DNA of 64,000 bases from Toxorhynchites rutilus septentrionalis (Eukaryota > Arthropoda > Insecta > Diptera > Culicidae), in the NCBI RefSeq assembly GCF_029784135.1, contig NC_073746.1, positions 33,138,387 through 33,202,386 of the forward strand, in the 5' to 3' direction. The notes under the pieces are model-generated. The model was not told the DNA's origin, ran no database searches, and saw nothing but the letters and a program-made list of their open reading frames with translations. A program made the position numbers and the translations under genes. Below are positions 43 to 60,053 of the stretch, piece after piece. The first letter of the stretch is position 1. Each line of letters begins with the position of its first letter.

Positions 43-1306
43 TAAAGGCTGTGTCACATCAAATTGCATCACGGAAAAAACGCTGTAGAAATTCGCCCAG
101 TAGACCGATTCTTTTGAAAATTTTAGACAGTAAAATAAAAACTATTAAACAACTTTTGGCATTTTCTTTTTATTCATACTTCGAGCCCAAGCCCGTATGC
201 TCGCACCTTCCTCTTTACCCCGTCCATAAGGTTCTGTACAACGTCAGGTTGTAGTTTTTATTGAACAGAAATCCATTTTCTCTTGAAGTCCGCCTCCGAT
301 TTGACAACTTTTGGGTTCTTCCGGAGGGCCTGCTTCATAAAAGCTCCGGCGCGTTGGGCGGGTTCATTTCCTTTGGCACGAAGGTGACCCCGTTGGCTTC
401 GTACCACTCCAACACGTCCTTTGAATAGTGGCTCGAAGCGAGATCCGGCCAGAAGATGGTCGGGCCCTCGTGCTGCTTCAATAGTGGTAGTAAGCGCTTC
501 TGTAGGCACTCCTTAAGGTAAACCTGCCCGTTTACCGTTGCCGGGCGCTCCGCTTTCCGCAAGAGCAGATCGCTTGCCACACCATGTACTTTTTGGCTAA
601 CTTGGATAGTTTCTGCTTGCGAATCTCCTCCGGAACGCTGAATTTGTTCTCTGCGGAGAAGAACAACAGGCCCGGCAGCTGACGAAAGTCCGCTTTGACG
701 TAGGTTTCGTCGTCCATTACCAGGCAATGCGGCTTCGTCAGCATTTCGGTGTAGAGCTTCCGGGCTCGCGTCTTCCCCACCATGTTTTGCCTTTCGTCGC
801 GGTTAGGAGCTTTCTGAACCTTGTATATACGCAGGCCCTCCCGCTGCTTGGTCCGCTGGACGAATGAACTTGACAAATTCAGCTTATTGGCGACATCCCG
901 GACCGAACTTCTCGGATCACGACTAAACTGCTTAACTACGCGCTTGTGATCTTTTTCACTGACGGAGCACCCATTTTTGCCGTTCTTCACCTTCCGGTCG
1001 ATGGTTAGGTTCTCGAAGTATCGTTTTAGTACTCTGCTGACCGTGGATTGGACGATTCCCAGCATCTTACCGATGTCCCGATGTGACAACTCCGGATTCT
1101 CGGAATGAGTGCGCAGGATTAATTCACGACGCTCTTTTTCGTTCGACGACATTTTTCCAAATTTACGAAAAATTTACAGTGAAGCATGGCCAACGTGATC
1201 TATACACTCTTATCTGATTATAAGCGAAAGCTGAAGATATAATTCCTAAAAATTAAATTTCTACAGCGTTTTTTCCGTGATGCAATTTGATGTGACACAC
1301 CCTTTA
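43..1306 (-). mobile_element. DD37E Tc1/mariner-superfamily transposon, copy 1 (decayed)
   Basis: The element lies between TA dinucleotides and has inverted termini of about 49 bp that begin AAGGGTGTGTCACATC. The left end carries a G-to-C change (AAGGCTG). It belongs to the same family as the copies at 20694-21994 and 58750-60053. It is about 40 bp shorter than those because of internal deletions, including roughly 25 bp near 340 and about 15 bp near 540. The transposase reads leftward on the minus strand and is broken. The family assignment rests on the 37-residue spacing between the second and third catalytic residues, seen clearly in the intact copies; this spacing is known from mosquito ITmD37E elements. 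Confidence 0.9.
262..1152 (-). pseudogene. DD37E transposase pseudogene (copy 1)
   Basis: The frame starts at an ATG (MSSNEKERRE), the same start as the intact copies. Residues 1-206 cover the N-terminal helix-turn-helix DNA-binding region (RDIGKMLG..QSTVSRVLK) and the first catalytic aspartate (VMDDETYVKADF). The frame is then lost near position 540, where about 15 bp present in the other copies (encoding FVMTG) are missing. The second catalytic block (FWPDLASSHYSKD) survives in another frame. A second deletion near 340 removes the RPIEKYW block that holds the catalytic glutamate, so no active enzyme can be made. Confidence 0.88.
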
Positions 1307-4660: not shown

Positions 4661-4678
4661 CGTAAAATGGATTGTGTC

Positions 4679-4876
4679 ACATTTACCCGAAACCCACTCA
4701 CCCGAATGACAGTTACCCGAAAGCGACAGCTACCCGAATGTAACATCTACCCGAATGCAACAATTACCCGTATGTAACATTTACCCGAATGTAACATTCA
4801 CCCGAATGCGACCGTTACCCTAATGTAACAATTACCCGAATGTAACATCTACCCGAAAGTGACACTTACCCAAAAG
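4679..4876. repeat. Left 17-bp minisatellite array of foldback element
   Basis: About 11-12 degenerate units follow the pattern TACCCGAATGTAACATC. The ACCCGAA core is conserved and the spacer between cores varies. The array is the inverted partner of the one at 9543-9792. Confidence 0.9.
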
Positions 4877-4995
4877 AAGGATATATTCAAATAAAGGGCG
4901 AACACGAAATTATTGCGACACCGAAAATGTCATGCCAATTTTTTTATAATGTTTAGAATCAAACCAAAATTTTAGGGTGGTTTTATACATATATT

Positions 4996-5301
4996 AATTA
5001 TGTTACATGAGGATATCGAAGAGTTTTTAAAAAGGAAAGACCGGTTTCACAGAGAGTACAAGTTAGACTGATTTTATTATTGTCAATTTTACATCATGAA
5101 GCCTAGCCATTTACCTAAAGCCCTTACGCTGCACATTCTATCCAGTCCGTTGTCGCGTCAGGTACAGAGTCCGAATCGGTGTTTTACGTTGGTGTCCTAA
5201 ATTGTTGTTTCGCTTGCGTTTGCGAATTGATGCTACCGATAAACTGTTCCACAGTGATCGGTTCTGTTGCTGTGGGGAAAATGATGTTGCTTGCGTTAAC
5301 T
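4996..5301 (-). repeat. LTR (3' LTR relative to transcription)
   Basis: This is the downstream 306-bp LTR of the provirus. It holds the last ~38 codons of env and the env stop codon at 5184-5186. It differs from the other LTR near 5021 (G against A) and near 5160 (T against C). Confidence 0.93.
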
Positions 5302-6917
5302 ACTCCCTCATCAAGTTTGGATCGTCCCGATACAATTGTGTTGGGATGATGGTTGTCTGCTGAACTGATGTTTGGTTTTTCTTCATTGGGTGTCCTTTTC
5401 TTCTGGTACCAATGGTAAACTATGACGATCAAGCCTATAATGAAGCATATAGATGAGAGGCCCAAACTTGTTGATGTTTGGATGAAATATCGGGTTTTAA
5501 TTATCTCCAGTTGTTCTCGGTTTTGGAAATGTAATTTCTTTAATGTGTGAAAGTCCAGGTTCTGCTCGAATTCGTTTTGTTCAATTTTCACGCCATCCAG
5601 AGGCACTATTGTTGGGATAATTCTCGATGGAAACGTAATGGAGCTAAAAGTTTTGTTGTTCAGTGAGATTGTACAGTTCTCGAAAAACAACAGCATCGTT
5701 CCTGTTAAAACTCTGTTGTTATGTAGACAGTCGCTTGATAGTGTGACTGTTGTGATTATGATGATGATATGGTTGTCTGTCAATCGTTTTATGTTGGTTG
5801 TATTCCGATAGTTCGTAAAGGTGCATTTTCCTGGGGAGCCTCGTATGATTTTGGAGAAGCATCTGTCGTCTGAGGTATCGTCTAATTTATCTTCTTCGCA
5901 AATGGAATTTTCGCCGATACTTTGGCAACTGCCTTTGATGAAATAGGTGGAGTTTCCGTAGATTGCTGCTTTATGCCAAGGGAGTTTGATGATTTGACCG
6001 TTGATTGGAAGTGGTTCTAGGAGAAGACTGGTGAATGGATGTGGTAAAATCTGCGGGACGCCGATGATGAAGTAGAGGATGGATTCCTTGAAGAGGGCTC
6101 TGATGTCTAGGTAATCGTATGCTTGGTCTGGATGTAGAATGGTAATATTTTGTTCTTCTAACTTATCTGAGATAAGCTTTAGTTCTTCTGCTTCTAGAAA
6201 ATTCTTAGAAATGATATTTATTTTTGCAAGTTGTATAACTTCGAAAATTGAGTCTAGGTGTTCTTGTATTAGGTCGACATGATAAGAAATTTTAAATGCC
6301 TGTCGGATTGCTGTGAAATTTTGATTGACAAGTTTGTTGGTGATTAGAGATTGTCTGGCTGATATAATTTGTTGCTTGATTATTCTTTGTTGTTCATTAA
6401 CGGAATCTATTAATTTGTTTATACGTTTTCCTAGATGTTTGTTGATAGTTACTTGAATATTATTTTGTCTTATAAGTTCTTGGTTGCCTCGTTTTAAGTC
6501 ATTTATATCGTTATCTATTTGGATTCGATCTTTTTCATCTAAATTGCCTGTAATCGCCTTTATGGCTGAGCCTAGAAAATTGAATGCTCCTCTCTTGTTT
6601 CTTCTATTTGGTAACAATTTCATATACGTGTTTTGGGCTTTCTTAAATTTGGACTGTAATGTGATATAAACGTCGCTGAAGTCTGTGAATATTTTAAGTC
6701 CGTCGATAGTGATAGCGATGTTGTTTAGTAATGGTCTATAGTCTTCCAAGTCTATTGTGTGATATATCCTGTGACGTCCAGTCTTAATTAGTACGTTTCC
6801 GGTCTGTAACGTCACTAGTCCTGGGTTTCTGGTCAGGTCATGTATTTGTATCGTTCTCGATGATGAGGTCGTGATGAACGTCAGCGTAATTAGTTTTAGA
6901 AGTTGGCTCCGCAACAT
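5184..6917 (-). CDS. env: Errantivirus-type envelope fusion glycoprotein
   Basis: An intact frame of 577 codons counted from the ATG at 6915-6917. The frame stays open upstream to 7016 but has no ATG there (a TTG is the first possible codon, preceded by a stop), so I chose the ATG directly before a hydrophobic signal-peptide-like segment. A basic furin-type site RRNKR lies at residues 105-109, followed by the glycine-rich fusion-peptide region GAFNFLGSAIKAITGNLD that is characteristic of F-like envelope proteins of errantiviruses and baculoviruses. A transmembrane segment lies near residues 483-504, with a cytoplasmic tail of about 72 residues whose end is encoded by the LTR. The family role is membrane fusion and entry; whether this copy is expressed or functional cannot be judged. 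No frameshift or stop interrupts it. Confidence 0.9.
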   Translation of the reverse strand: MLRSQLLKLITLTFITTSSSRTIQIHDLTRNPGLVTLQTGNVLIKTGRHRIYHTIDLEDYRPLLNNIAITIDGLKIFTDFSDVYITLQSKFKKAQNTYMKLLPNRRNKRGAFNFLGSAIKAITGNLDEKDRIQIDNDINDLKRGNQELIRQNNIQVTINKHLGKRINKLIDSVNEQQRIIKQQIISARQSLITNKLVNQNFTAIRQAFKISYHVDLIQEHLDSIFEVIQLAKINIISKNFLEAEELKLISDKLEEQNITILHPDQAYDYLDIRALFKESILYFIIGVPQILPHPFTSLLLEPLPINGQIIKLPWHKAAIYGNSTYFIKGSCQSIGENSICEEDKLDDTSDDRCFSKIIRGSPGKCTFTNYRNTTNIKRLTDNHIIIIITTVTLSSDCLHNNRVLTGTMLLFFENCTISLNNKTFSSITFPSRIIPTIVPLDGVKIEQNEFEQNLDFHTLKKLHFQNREQLEIIKTRYFIQTSTSLGLSSICFIIGLIVIVYHWYQKKRTPNEEKPNISSADNHHPNTIVSGRSKLDEGVVNASNIIFPTATEPITVEQFIGSINSQTQAKQQFRTPT

Positions 6918-7094
6918 ATCTTGAATGTTCCTAGATTTGATGGGAATCAATGTAGCGTATCTCGAGAATTTATTTGATAAAAAGGTATCACTCGTGCGTC
7001 CGTTGTAGTTCTCCAATCGTCAGCCACTCGATATTCGTTCGCGCGGGAAATCACTTTCGAGAATTGGATCTACGCGTGAACACTTGAACGAGCG

Positions 7095-7112
7095 ATCCTA
7101 CCGACTGCGCCA
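7095..7112 (-). promoter_or_regulatory. Primer-binding site (tRNA-Ser type)
   Basis: On the minus strand TGGCGCAGTCGGTAGGAT directly abuts the upstream LTR and shares its terminal T. This complements a tRNA-Ser 3' end, the primer used by many insect errantiviruses, and sets both the direction of the provirus and the LTR border. Confidence 0.88.
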
Positions 7113-7417
7113 ATTATGTTACATGAGGATATCGAAAAGTTTTTAAAAAGGAAAGACCGGTTTCACAGAGAGTACAAGTTAGACTGATTTTATTATTGTC
7201 AATTTTACATCATGAAGCCTAGCCATTTACCTAAAGCCCTTACGCTGCACATTCTATCCAGTCCGTTGTCGCGCCAGGTACAGAGTCCGAATCGGTGTTT
7301 TACGTTGGTGTCCTAAATTGTTGTTTCGCTTGCGTTTGCGAATTGATGCTACCGATAAACTGTTCCACAGTGATCGGTTCTGTTGCTGTGGGGAAAATGA
7401 TGTTGCTTGCGTTAACT
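7112..7417 (-). repeat. LTR (5' LTR relative to transcription)
   Basis: This is the upstream 306-bp LTR. It would hold the promoter driving env on the minus strand. It also carries an untranslated copy of the env tail-coding sequence. It borders the primer-binding site at 7112 and the TATT target duplication at 7418. Confidence 0.93.
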
Positions 7418-7424
7418 TATTTAC

Positions 7425-12042: not shown

Positions 12043-14105
12043 TTTTTTATCCAAAATATATATTTTATTAAGGCTCATATGGCGTCAGCCTAACGGGGCC
12101 GGGAGTTCAATATTTTGACAATGTTTGCTTAGACTATGTTAGTAATATGTAACCGATTACTCGCGGTTGACTCGAGGTTAGTATTACAAGTGTTCTCATA
12201 ATTGGTATGTTGCAGTCTTCGATGCTCTGTACGTGTGCCCGACACGGGATACCTCCTATTGGGATGCAGCTGACCATTAATCAGCAACGCCCCCTTATTC
12301 TGTACCCCATATCTAGCGTGGTGCGTCTTTCTCGACTCGAGGAATCCAGGATAGAATGGTCACTAGCCGGCGCAATCATCAGCTCGTGTAGAGTTGTCAT
12401 GAGCGGTACAACCTTTGACTCTTGTTGGATGATCAGTGGACTGCACAACCTTTGGCCCGTGTATCTGTAAAGAGTGTGTGTATGTATTGCCGCGACTAAG
12501 TAAAAGTTTATAGATCGGATAGGAGGGATATGCAACAGGGACACAACGAAGGAAACATCATTAAACGTTGACATTGGCGTTTCTGAGGAACAGGTATAGA
12601 TGAAGCAGAAGATCAAGATCACGGCTACCTAAGATATCCCGGACGGGGATATCCGATTGTCTGCCTTGTGCTCTCAGTGCTCTAGAGAGCTGAGAGCGAG
12701 CAGCATGGAACCGGATACACGACCAGACAACATGCTCGATGTCGTGGTAGCCATCGCCACAATCACAAAGATTGTTTGCTGCGAGCCCAATGCGATAGAG
12801 ATGCGCGTTTAGGTTGTAGTGATTGGACATAAGCCGAGATATCACGCGAATGAAATCACGACCTACATTCAATCCCTTGAACCATGCACTCGTCGAGACC
12901 TTAGGGATAATCGTGTGTAACCAACGACCGAACTCATCTCCACTACACATGCGTTGCCAACTTACGAGCGTATACTGACGAGGAATGTGGAAAAATTCAT
13001 TATAAGCAATTTGCCTTTCAAAAAGTGTGCCTTCTAAAGCGCCCACCTTAGCTAGCGAGTCCGCTTTCTCATTCCCCGGAATCGCGCAATGAGAGGGAAC
13101 CCATGCTAAGGTAATCTTGAATAATTTTTCGACCAAAACACTCAATAGTTGTCTTATTCTTGTTAGGAAATAAGATGAGCATTTATCAACTTTCATTGAG
13201 CGGATTGCCTCTATTGAGCTGAGACTGTCTGAAAAAATAAAATAGTGGTCGATGGGCAATGTTTTAATCCCTAATCCCTAATGCGTAATATATCGCACCC
13301 AGTTCAGCGACATACACGGAACAAGGATCTTTGAGTTTGAAAGAGGCACTGGAATTTTCATTGAAGATGCCGAAGCCAGTGGACCCGTTTATGAATGAAC
13401 CGTCAGTAAAGAACATTTTATCAGATCTAACTATGCCCCCATATTCTGCCGAAAATATCGGCGGAATAGAATCGGAGCGTAGGTGATCTGGGATTCCATG
13501 GATTTTTTGTCGCATGGACAGATAAAAAATGACAGAGGAATTGCAGAAGTAAGGGAAGCAAACTTGGTTGGAGATGCCTGGTGAAGGGTGCACGTCATGG
13601 GTAAGGTACTCATGGTATAAAGACATAAAACTTGACTGAGGAGTCAGTTGGAGTAGATTTTCGAAGTTATCAATCACCAATGGATTCATGATCTTGCAAC
13701 GGATGAGAAATCTGTAGGATAATTCTGTGAACCGAAGAGTAAGCGGGGGTACTCCTGCCAAAACTTCGAGACTCATCGTATGTGTCGAATGCAAACACCC
13801 CATGGCTATACGCAAGCAACGATATTGTATCCTCTCCAGCTTGAGAATATGAATCCTGGCAGCTGATCGGAAGCAAAAACTGCCATATTCTAACACTGAC
13901 AATATCGCTGTTTTGTACAACTGAATGAGGTCTCCTGGATGGGCACCCCACCATGTTCCGGTAATTGTTTGGAGAAAATTGATTCTTTGTTGGCATTTCT
14001 GTTTCAAATACGCAATGTGTCTCCCCCAGGTACACTTAGAATCAAAATATACACCCAGGTATTTGAAAAACATAGAGTGTTGGATCGTTTTGCCGGATAG
14101 GTGAA
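12043..14105 (-). mobile_element. I-like non-LTR retrotransposon, copy A (5'-truncated)
   Basis: The T run at 12043 is the reverse complement of the A-rich 3' tail. The right end stops inside the reverse transcriptase region. TTAGTTTT occurs on both sides (12035-12042 and 14106-14113), a likely target duplication whose exact length is blurred by the T run. Only the last part of ORF2 remains. Its protein is close to that of the element at 29278-34759, but the 3' untranslated region differs, so it is a sister subfamily. Confidence 0.82.
12561..14105 (-). pseudogene. I-like ORF2 fragment: RT end, RNase H, CCHC
   Basis: The fragment begins just before FKYLGVYFDSKCTWG, in the C-terminal part of reverse transcriptase. 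The RNase H domain follows with all four acidic positions: FFTDGS, VAELGAIYYAL, FSDSLSSIEAI and PGNEKADSLAK. It ends with a CDCGDGYHDIEHVVWSC zinc-binding motif. The frame shifts near 13260, where the tract AATCCCTAATCCCTAATG appears to contain a small tandem duplication. The RNase H domain separates this group from CR1/Jockey-type elements elsewhere in the window. Confidence 0.87.
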
Positions 14106-20693: not shown

Positions 20694-21994
20694 TAAAGGG
20701 TGTGTCACATCAAATTGCATCACGGAAAAAACGCTGTAGAAATTCGCCCAGTAGACCGATCCTTTTGAAAATTTTAGACAGTAAAATAAAAACTATTAAA
20801 CAACTTTTGGCATTTTCTTTTTATTCATACTTCGAGCCCAAGCCCGTATGCTCGCACCTTCCTCTTTACCCCGTCCATAAGGTTCTGTACAACGTCAGGT
20901 TGTAGTTTTTTTGAACAGAAATCCATTTTCTCTTGAAGTCCGCCTCCGATTTGACAACTTTTGGGTTCTTCCGGAGGGCCTGCTTCATAATCGCCCAATA
21001 TTTCTCTATAGGGCGAAGCTCCGGCGCGTTGGGCGGGTTCATTTCCTTTGGCACGAAGGTGACCCCGTTGGCTTCGTACCACTCCAACACGTCCTTTGAA
21101 TAGTGGCACGAAGCGAGATCCGGCCAGAAGATGGTCGGGCCCTCGTGCTGCTTCAATAGTGGTAGTAAGCGCTTCTGTAGGCACTCCTTAAGGTAAACCT
21201 GCCCGTTTACCGTGCCGGTCATCACGAAGGTGGCGCTCCGCTTTCCGCAAGAGCAGATCGCTTGCCGTACCAAGTACTTTTTGGCAAACTTGGATAGTTT
21301 CTGCTTGCGAATCTCCTCCGGAACGCTGAATTTGTCCTCTGCGGAGAAGAAAAACAGGCCCGGCAGCTGACGAAAGTCCGCTTTGACGTAGGTTTCGTCG
21401 TCCATTACCAGGCAATGCGGCTTCGTCAGCATTTCGGTGTACAGCTTCCGGGCTCGCGTCTTCCCCACCATGTTTTGCCTTTCGTCGCGGTTAGGAGCCT
21501 TCTGAACCTTGTATGTACGCAGGCCCTCCCGCTGCTTGGTCCGCTGGACGAATGAACTTGACAAATTCAGCTTATTGGCGACATCCCGGACCGAAATTCT
21601 CGGATCACGTCTAAATTGCTTAACTACGCGCTTGTGATCTTTTTCACTGACGGAGCATCCATTTTTGCCTTTCTTCACCTTCCGGTCGATGGTTAGGTTC
21701 TCGAAGTATCGTTTTAATACTCTGCTGACCGTGGATTGGACGTTTCCCAGCATCTTACCGATGTCCCACAACTCCGACTCCGGATTCTCGAAATGAGTGC
21801 GCAGGATTAATACACGACGCTCTTTTTCGTTCGACGACATTTTTCCAAATTTACGAAAAATTGACAGTGAAGCATGGCCAACGTGATCTATACACTCATA
21901 TCTGATTATAAGCGAAAGCTGAAGATATAATTCCTAAAAATTAAATTTCTACAGCGTTTTTTCCGTGATGCAATTTGATGTGACACACCCTTTA
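20694..21994 (-). mobile_element. DD37E transposon, copy 2 (full length)
   Basis: A 1301-bp element with TA at both ends. The inverted termini start AAGGGTGTGTCACATC and match for about 49 bp. It holds an uninterrupted transposase gene and is the best candidate here for an autonomous element. Confidence 0.93.
20866..21840 (-). CDS. DD37E transposase (copy 2, intact)
   Basis: 324 residues from the ATG at 21838-21840. The N-terminal ~110 residues hold two helix-turn-helix blocks (DIGKMLGNVQSTVSRVLKR and SVRDVANKLNLSSSFVQ). The catalytic residues are the aspartate in VMDDETYVKADF, the aspartate in FWPDLASCHY and the glutamate in ELRPIEKYW. The last two are 37 residues apart, giving DD37E. The role is cut-and-paste transposition at TA. 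Compared with the 58951-59898 copy it has ESELWD in place of ELSHRD in the first helix-turn-helix, which could weaken DNA binding. Its C-terminus reads through a 7-T tract, whereas the other intact copy shifts frame there. Confidence 0.92.
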   Translation of the reverse strand: MSSNEKERRVLILRTHFENPESELWDIGKMLGNVQSTVSRVLKRYFENLTIDRKVKKGKNGCSVSEKDHKRVVKQFRRDPRISVRDVANKLNLSSSFVQRTKQREGLRTYKVQKAPNRDERQNMVGKTRARKLYTEMLTKPHCLVMDDETYVKADFRQLPGLFFFSAEDKFSVPEEIRKQKLSKFAKKYLVRQAICSCGKRSATFVMTGTVNGQVYLKECLQKRLLPLLKQHEGPTIFWPDLASCHYSKDVLEWYEANGVTFVPKEMNPPNAPELRPIEKYWAIMKQALRKNPKVVKSEADFKRKWISVQKNYNLTLYRTLWTG

Positions 21995-58749: not shown

Positions 58750-60053
58750 TAAAGGGTGTGTCACATCAAATTGCATCACAGAAAAAACGCTGTAGAAATT
58801 CGCCCAGTAGACCGATCCTTTTGAAAATTTTAGACAGTAAAATAAAAACTATTAAACAACTTTTGGCATTTTCTTTTTATTCATACTTCGAGCCCAAGCC
58901 CGTATGCTCGCACCTTCCTCTTTACCGCGTCCATAAGGTTCTGTACAACGTCAGGTTGTAGTTTTTTTTTGAACAGAAATCCATTTTCTCTTGAAGTCCG
59001 CCTCCGATTTGACAACTTTTGGGTTCTTCCGGAGGGCCTGCTTCATAATCGCCCAATATTTCTCTATAGGGCGAAGCTCCGGCGCGTTGGGCGGGTTCAT
59101 TTCCTTTGGCACGAAGGTGACCCCGTTGGCTTCGTACCACTCCAACACGTCCTTTGAATAGTGGCACGAAGCGAGATCCGGCCAGAAGATGGTCGGGCCC
59201 TCGTGCTGCTTCAATAGTGGTAGTAAGCGCTTCTGTAGGCACTCCTTAAGGTAAACCTGCCCGTTTACCGTGCCGGTCATCACGAAGGGGGCGCTCCGCT
59301 TTCCGCAAGAGCAGATCGCTTGCCACACCATGTACTTTTTGGCAAACTTGGATAGTTTCTGCTTGCGAATCTCCTCCGGAACGCTGAATTTGTCCTTTGC
59401 GGAGAAGAACAACAGGCCCGGCAGCTGACGAAAGTCCGCTTTGACGTAGGTTTCGTCGTCCATTACCAGGCAATGCGGCTTCGTCAGCATTTCGGTGTAC
59501 AGCTTCCGGGCTCGCGTTTTCCCCACCATGTTTTGCCTTTCGTCACGGTTAAGAGCCTTCTGAACCTTGTATGTACGCAGGCCCTCCCCCTGCTTGGTCC
59601 GCTGGACGAATGAACTTGACAAATTCAGCTTATTGACGACATCCCGGACCGAACTTCTCGGATCACGTCTAAACTGCTTAATTACGCGCTTGTGATCTTT
59701 TTCACTGACGGAGCATCCATTTTTGCCGTTCTTCACCTTCCGGTCGATGGTTAGGTTCTCGAAGTATCGTTTTAGTACTCTGCTGACCGTGGATTGGACG
59801 ATTCCCAGCATCTTACCGATGTCCCGATGTGACAACTCCGGATTCTCGAAATGAGTGCGCAGGATTAATTCACGACGCTCTTTTTCGTTCGACGACATTT
59901 TTCCAAATTTACGAAAAATTGACAGTGAAGCATGGCCAACGTGATCTATACACTCTTATCTGATTATAAAACCAAAGCTGAAAATATAATTCCTAAAAAT
60001 TAAATTTCTACAGCGTTTTTTCCGTGATGCAATTTGATGTGACACACCCTTTA
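58750..60053 (-). mobile_element. DD37E transposon, copy 3 (full length)
   Basis: 1304 bp with TA ends and the family's ~49-bp inverted termini (one internal change on the left, CACAGAAA for CACGGAAA). It inserted into the GATGGCGGC repeat region at GACTA. The transposase frame is open over its catalytic domain. Confidence 0.93.
58951..59898 (-). CDS. DD37E transposase (copy 3, catalytic core intact)
   Basis: 315 residues from the ATG at 59896-59898. The helix-turn-helix is of normal form (ELSHRDIGKMLGIVQSTVSRVLK). The catalytic set is VMDDETYVKADF, FWPDLASCHY and ELRPIEKYW with DD37E spacing. The tract at 58963-58971 has 9 T where copy 2 has 7; this shifts the frame so the protein ends ISVQKKTTT and loses the NYNLTLYRTLWTG tail. 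Whether the tail matters is unknown. Otherwise it is at least as well preserved as copy 2. Confidence 0.9.
   Translation of the reverse strand: MSSNEKERRELILRTHFENPELSHRDIGKMLGIVQSTVSRVLKRYFENLTIDRKVKNGKNGCSVSEKDHKRVIKQFRRDPRSSVRDVVNKLNLSSSFVQRTKQGEGLRTYKVQKALNRDERQNMVGKTRARKLYTEMLTKPHCLVMDDETYVKADFRQLPGLLFFSAKDKFSVPEEIRKQKLSKFAKKYMVWQAICSCGKRSAPFVMTGTVNGQVYLKECLQKRLLPLLKQHEGPTIFWPDLASCHYSKDVLEWYEANGVTFVPKEMNPPNAPELRPIEKYWAIMKQALRKNPKVVKSEADFKRKWISVQKKTTT

Follow-up and report, generated by a model that had tools for sequence, protein, structure and literature searches.

Env-only proviruses with splice-exact joins in the mosquito Toxorhynchites rutilus septentrionalis point to copying of a doubly spliced errantivirus env mRNA

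Splice donor-associated retroelements (SDAREs) of murine leukaemia virus (MLV), which are integrated copies of a spliced retroviral RNA, were reportedly first described by Houzet et al. in 2003. The available text of one report states that the MLV SD' RNA is encapsidated, reverse transcribed and integrated as an SDARE, and that the integrated copy transcribes this RNA unspliced (PMC2925334). Fully spliced RNAs of human immunodeficiency virus type 1 (HIV-1) are packaged and reverse transcribed, and the accessible sections of that paper describe cDNA in virions and cells as the products and no stable germline copies (PMC1868081). For HERV-W, the available part of the source describes copies of endogenous retrovirus (ERV) transcripts that were made by the long interspersed nuclear element LINE-1, some of them lacking a putative intron (PMC6995185). 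Errantiviruses of Drosophila (gypsy, ZAM and the iERV clade) express env from a spliced subgenomic RNA with one upstream exon, in a subclade-dependent manner according to the portion of the paper at hand (PMC12992720), and the passages available from a gypsy review describe gypsy's packaging element as unknown (PMC4276936). No germline env-only copies of spliced errantivirus RNA appeared among the open-literature matches listed, which consisted of titles and abstract openings and left subscription journals mostly outside. The strings "splic" and "subgenomic" are absent from the main texts of PMC13172572, which covers env-bearing elements in mosquitoes and other insects, and of PMC5408687. Here we analyze an env-only element in 64,000 nucleotides of T. 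rutilus septentrionalis DNA (contig NC_073746.1, positions 33,138,387 to 33,202,386 of the forward strand), the whole of which we call the window.

The element occupies positions 4996 to 7417 of the window on the minus strand, a detail missing from the first-pass annotation, and is almost certainly a non-autonomous, env-only long terminal repeat (LTR) provirus derived from a doubly spliced errantivirus env mRNA through errantivirus reverse transcription and integration. Its 5' LTR (7112 to 7417, minus strand) and 3' LTR (4996 to 5301, minus strand) are each 306 bp long and differ at two positions, as annotated; in an alignment of eight complete 5' LTRs both changes occur in this 5' LTR only and thus look like post-insertion mutations. 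The target-site duplication TATT was read directly on both sides (7418 to 7421 on the 5' side, 4992 to 4995 on the 3' side). Adjoining the 5' LTR is the primer-binding-site-like sequence TGGCGCAGTCGGTAGGAT (7095 to 7112, minus strand); of the tRNA-Ser primer-binding site proposed by the annotation, the site itself is thus present, and its fit to tRNA-Ser is presumed. Comparison with the parental elements described below divides the interior into exon 1 (6974 to 7111, minus strand), a 138-nt leader ending in TATCAA, exon 2 (6918 to 6973, minus strand; 56 nt) and exon 3, the env frame (5184 to 6917, minus strand). Exons 1 and 2 form a 194-nt, ATG-free leader, in agreement with the roughly 190 bp originally estimated, and the 577-codon env frame is intact, its final 118 nt overlapping the 3' LTR. 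The predicted product is an Env of the Pfam Gypsy family (PF07253; E 4e-39), and the annotated purine tract, GATGAGGGAGT (5302 to 5312, minus strand), lies inside the frame next to the 3' LTR. Leader and env take up the whole 1,810-nt interval separating the LTRs, which leaves no room for gag or, apart from the 56-nt exon, for pol. The annotated absence of both genes therefore holds with the exception of exon 2, which derives from pol, and the unit does not have the gag and pol of its own that would make it an autonomous env-bearing errantivirus (Metaviridae).

We then searched the 902.6-Mb genome assembly (514 contigs) for the full-length parent that the annotation had called for. All of the best 40 of 140 LTR candidates that were scored showed 98 to 100% identity, and LTR pairs among these matches were spaced at approximately 7.1 kb (several, full-length), 6.0 kb (one) and approximately 2.1 kb (two, namely the window element and a second copy at C3:303.16 Mb). 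Full-length parents with 98 to 99% identical LTRs are thus present in the same genome. On pieces from different full-length copies we read a 448-codon gag frame, with matches to Ty3_capsid (E 1e-5) and Retrotrans_gag (E 6e-5) that both fall slightly under the Pfam cut-offs, a pol frame with RVT_1 (E 3e-39) and RNase H, and an integrase with Integrase_H2C2 (9e-13) and rve (8e-9). By these predicted domains, the parents are env-bearing errantiviruses (Metaviridae), with gag, pol and a gypsy-type env between LTRs. In one of these loci (L016), the pol frame stops about 30 nt before the env ATG. Among eight full-length pairs checked, two had target duplications readable outside TA repeats, both of 4 bp (TATA and TATG). 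One full-length copy (C2:339108640/C2:339115802) combines a 306-type 5' LTR with a 310-type 3' LTR, which suggests exchange between LTR subtypes.

The parents align with the window element from the LTR through leader position 138, where 10 of 11 copies carry the donor TATCAA/GTAAGT (the slash marks the border); the eleventh, L021 (C2:305366300-305366700), has ATAAGT in place of GTAAGT. Exon 2 lies 657 nt upstream of env in the parents, inside the integrase-core coding region of pol, preceded by TTTTTAG and followed by GTACGT. Of 11 acceptor-side parental pieces, eight match it at 100% identity, and the remaining three have a variant that differs from it at 14 positions, with its GT-AG signals in identical places. 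The env acceptor is TATAG/ATG, so that exon 3 opens with its own ATG. No microhomology was detected at either join, as no base can be assigned to both sides. Arithmetic from the coordinates of the full-length C2:339.1 Mb copy gives the two introns as about 4.39 kb and 657 nt, which together account for the whole of its size difference from the window element. Read against the parental sequences, the join in the window is the result of the exact removal of two GT-AG introns. The annotation had proposed testing this junction for a GT...AG intron; the splice signals are exactly in place, and the single intron gives way to two introns flanking a 56-nt exon. Within the parental set, L012, L013 and L020 differ from L010, L011 and L014 to L019 at 14 of the 56 positions of exon 2 while their env sequences are nearly identical, and this pairing of two exon 2 versions with near-identical env suggests recombination in pol between lineages.

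Further env-only copies, whose existence at other sites had been raised by the annotation, were found at three places. When the best 40 of 148 candidates from a search with the leader and env start were scored, four matched throughout and 36 only from the env ATG; a junction query (best 40 of 44 candidates scored) returned the same four copies. We also scanned the whole genome for three joins, allowing up to two mismatches. The exon 2-exon 3 join occurred at four places (control, 0), and the exon 1-exon 2 join was exact at the same four, with four more two-mismatch matches elsewhere (backwards control, 3). A direct exon 1-exon 3 join, skipping the middle exon, occurred nowhere in the genome (control, 4). 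Besides the window element, the copies are L009 (C3:303.16 Mb), with identical 310-bp LTRs and an intact 577-codon env; L028 (contig C445, 10,190 bp), with identical 310-bp LTRs and an 8-nt deletion, its frame ending at 508; and L029 (C2:99.46 Mb), with LTRs of 297 and 306 bp, a TACG at each end and a frame ending at 181. L009 and L028 both sit in (TA)n, and their outer flanks differ. Because three more copies with the same join are present at other places, the window element is not a product of chance or an assembly slip. L029 is split by an A-tailed insert of about 1.9 kb, the start of which resembles by eye a reverse-transcriptase-like frame at window positions 13264 to 14073.

These copies resemble the SDAREs of MLV, which provide a precedent for the mechanism: the internal join coincides with the parental splice junction, as judged from GT-AG borders in the parental DNA, and complete LTRs and a primer-binding site are retained. 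In the available text, SDAREs are described from cell lines and use an alternative donor (SD') inside gag, whereas the mosquito copies are germline, derive from a Metaviridae-type, doubly spliced env RNA and use a donor in the leader, 138 nt past the 5' LTR. Germline residence also sets them apart from the HIV-1 products in the accessible sections cited above. Full-length copies would supply Gag-Pol, and the spliced env RNA would be packaged; a tRNA would prime at the retained primer-binding site, both strand transfers would be completed, and the integrase of the element family itself would insert the product. Complete LTRs and 4-bp duplications argue for the reverse transcriptase and integrase of the elements themselves and for no involvement of a LINE.

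To place the copies among their relatives, we compared the 3' part of 37 unspliced loci, which became 36 once L060, missing the env start word, was dropped. Exon 2 is kept 680 to 713 nt upstream of env in 33 of these (24 with variant A and 9 with variant B) and is unreadable in three, and a 577-codon env is kept in 23 of the 36. In a tree of 34 unspliced loci and the four env-only copies (the shortened L035 and L036 dropped; L029, L050 and L057 trimmed), the env-only copies did not group together; most branches were weakly supported, since the family is very young. A single env-only founder, later remobilized in trans into all copies, seems unlikely to us, even though exon choice is identical in all four and L009 and L028 have one LTR type with few differing sites. 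No private variant is common to the window element, L009 and L028. The readable env alleles of L029 are those of L049 and five of its leader/LTR alleles are those of L006, both of them unspliced loci, and the LTR type separates the window element (306) from L009 and L028 (310). LTR types can be exchanged, as the copy at C2:339.1 Mb with one of each indicates, and informative sites are few; one founder may therefore account for L009 and L028, and we limit our claim accordingly. Based on the lack of shared private variants and the differing parental lineages, the env-only copies are, in these alignments, products of at least two separate events from at least two parental lineages, and three or more events are likely.

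We consider it very improbable that the element is a host-domesticated env gene. Two copies, the window element and L009, do have an open frame, but a domesticated env would be expected at a single locus without LTRs, and what we found are recent, LTR-flanked, multicopy insertions with star-like divergence, two of the four broken, in a family whose unspliced loci also frequently keep the 577-codon frame. The idea that a full-length provirus lost gag-pol through genomic deletion or recombination deserves next to no weight: internal deletions do exist in this genome (L144, described below), but here two separate deletions would have had to hit four splice borders precisely and without microhomology, preserve a 56-nt internal piece and repeat the pattern at four places, and the exact double join rules this origin out for the focal copies. 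Similarly negligible is LINE retroposition of a spliced env mRNA by the processed-pseudogene route of HERV-W. The A-tailed insert in L029 looks non-LTR-like by eye, so such machinery is likely present, but both LTRs are complete, no poly-A follows the 3' LTR in the window element, L009, L028 or L029, and the readable duplications are 4 bp, matching the two parental pairs. LINE-made ERV copies, as the available text describes them, instead have LTRs truncated to R-U5 and U3-R, lacking the U3 of the 5' LTR and the U5 of the 3' LTR, and end in poly-A tails (PMC6995185). An assembly gap was rejected as the cause because the same join occurs in three other copies elsewhere. The outcomes that would have spoken against copying of a spliced RNA, as proposed by the annotation, were thus looked for (missing splice signals, microhomology, an assembly gap) and none was found, while the splice-exact joins, the parents and the extra copies support it.

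Genome-wide, PF07253 gave 1,603 first-look candidates, and the 90 that were scored all pass the cut-off, at 155 to 176 bits compared with 135 for the window env. For 70 of these 90 we read 1.5 kb upstream. The focal env start, LTR and leader had no blastn match in any of the 70 pieces, which therefore represent other families, and pol lies upstream of env in 64. The six pol-less pieces comprise two loci rearranged upstream, one deletion and three joins at the env acceptor. L079 and L085 were ruled out as env-only copies: they have no upstream pol match but retain the intronic side of env, and are thus loci with rearranged upstream DNA. L144 was ruled out as a spliced copy, as a donor and gag-like sequence run into env off the splice site. 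The three joined copies, L077 (C3:121.15 Mb), L110 (C2:71.23 Mb) and L139 (C3:125.06 Mb), carry LTR-like sequence, a primer-binding-like site, a leader and a short exon. Their parental acceptors are CTTTACAG/ATTCATC, TTTCTTACAG/ACTCGCC and TTATTTCCAG/GATCCCAG, respectively, and the L139 donor, visible in L144, is CTT/GTGAGT, with one G that fits either side. In all three, an in-frame ATG for Env comes from the short exon, and the hydrophobic stretch that begins there resembles a signal peptide by eye; the parental env exons have no ATG at that place. The leaders from primer-binding site to ATG measure 323, 318 and 236 nt, respectively, and contain no upstream ATG. On the strength of these joins, spliced-env copies are probably present in three other clusters of env elements. 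Their short peptide-encoding exon after the leader recalls the ZAM and Beagle subclades, whereas the focal family differs from the Drosophila errantiviruses in having two introns, a 56-nt exon from the integrase region and an env exon with its own ATG, insofar as the available part of the source describes them (PMC12992720). A PF07253 match at C2:24887436-24888836 has a 561-codon open frame like that of L139, many matches of the same profile range having 511, and may be a further env-only copy.

Several points weigh against copying of spliced RNA as the origin of these elements. The target duplications of L009 and L028 are unreadable because both lie in (TA)n, and the 10-kb contig that carries L028 is unplaced. 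Exon 2 is of variant A in each of the four focal copies, as it is in 24 of the 33 readable unspliced loci, and every one of the four has minus-strand orientation on its contig, in what is a small sample. For L077, L110 and L139 the 3' LTRs were not seen, nor were the donors of two of the families. Moreover, we infer packaging, priming and the transcript itself from genomic sequence.

Among 26 Env relatives, a single one bears a source name (Aedes albopictus, 61% identity). A phmmer search against PDB sequences gave one match (E 0.18), which was not used, and the viral contig collection searched contained no relative. Directly beside the element, at 4675 to 4871, is a tandem array of 17/51-bp units (ACCCGAATGTAACATTT). 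Three similar frames elsewhere in the window (532 to 1152, 20866 to 21840 and 58951 to 59898) look like putative Tc1/mariner-type transposases.

The copies provide a direct route, exact to the splice site, along which an entry gene of a virus turns into a unit of its own. As fossils in DNA they also preserve the structure of an mRNA, and from them a 56-nt exon within the integrase gene could be recognized with no recourse to RNA. If they arose by this route, the cis signals it needs must lie in what was kept, namely the leader exon, the middle exon, env and the LTRs, and the copies amount to a natural sufficiency test for packaging, reverse transcription and integration. For the focal family this would narrow the location of a packaging element to exon 1 (138 nt), exon 2, env and the LTRs. 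More tentatively, and with more doubt than confidence on our part, spliced env RNA might serve errantiviruses as a regular second genome. In several families its packaging, copying and integration would then be frequent enough for env to spread alone as short two-LTR proviruses, from which full-length or env-less elements would obtain Env and host co-option its raw material. If so, all packaging cis signals would lie within a short leader exon, env and the LTRs.
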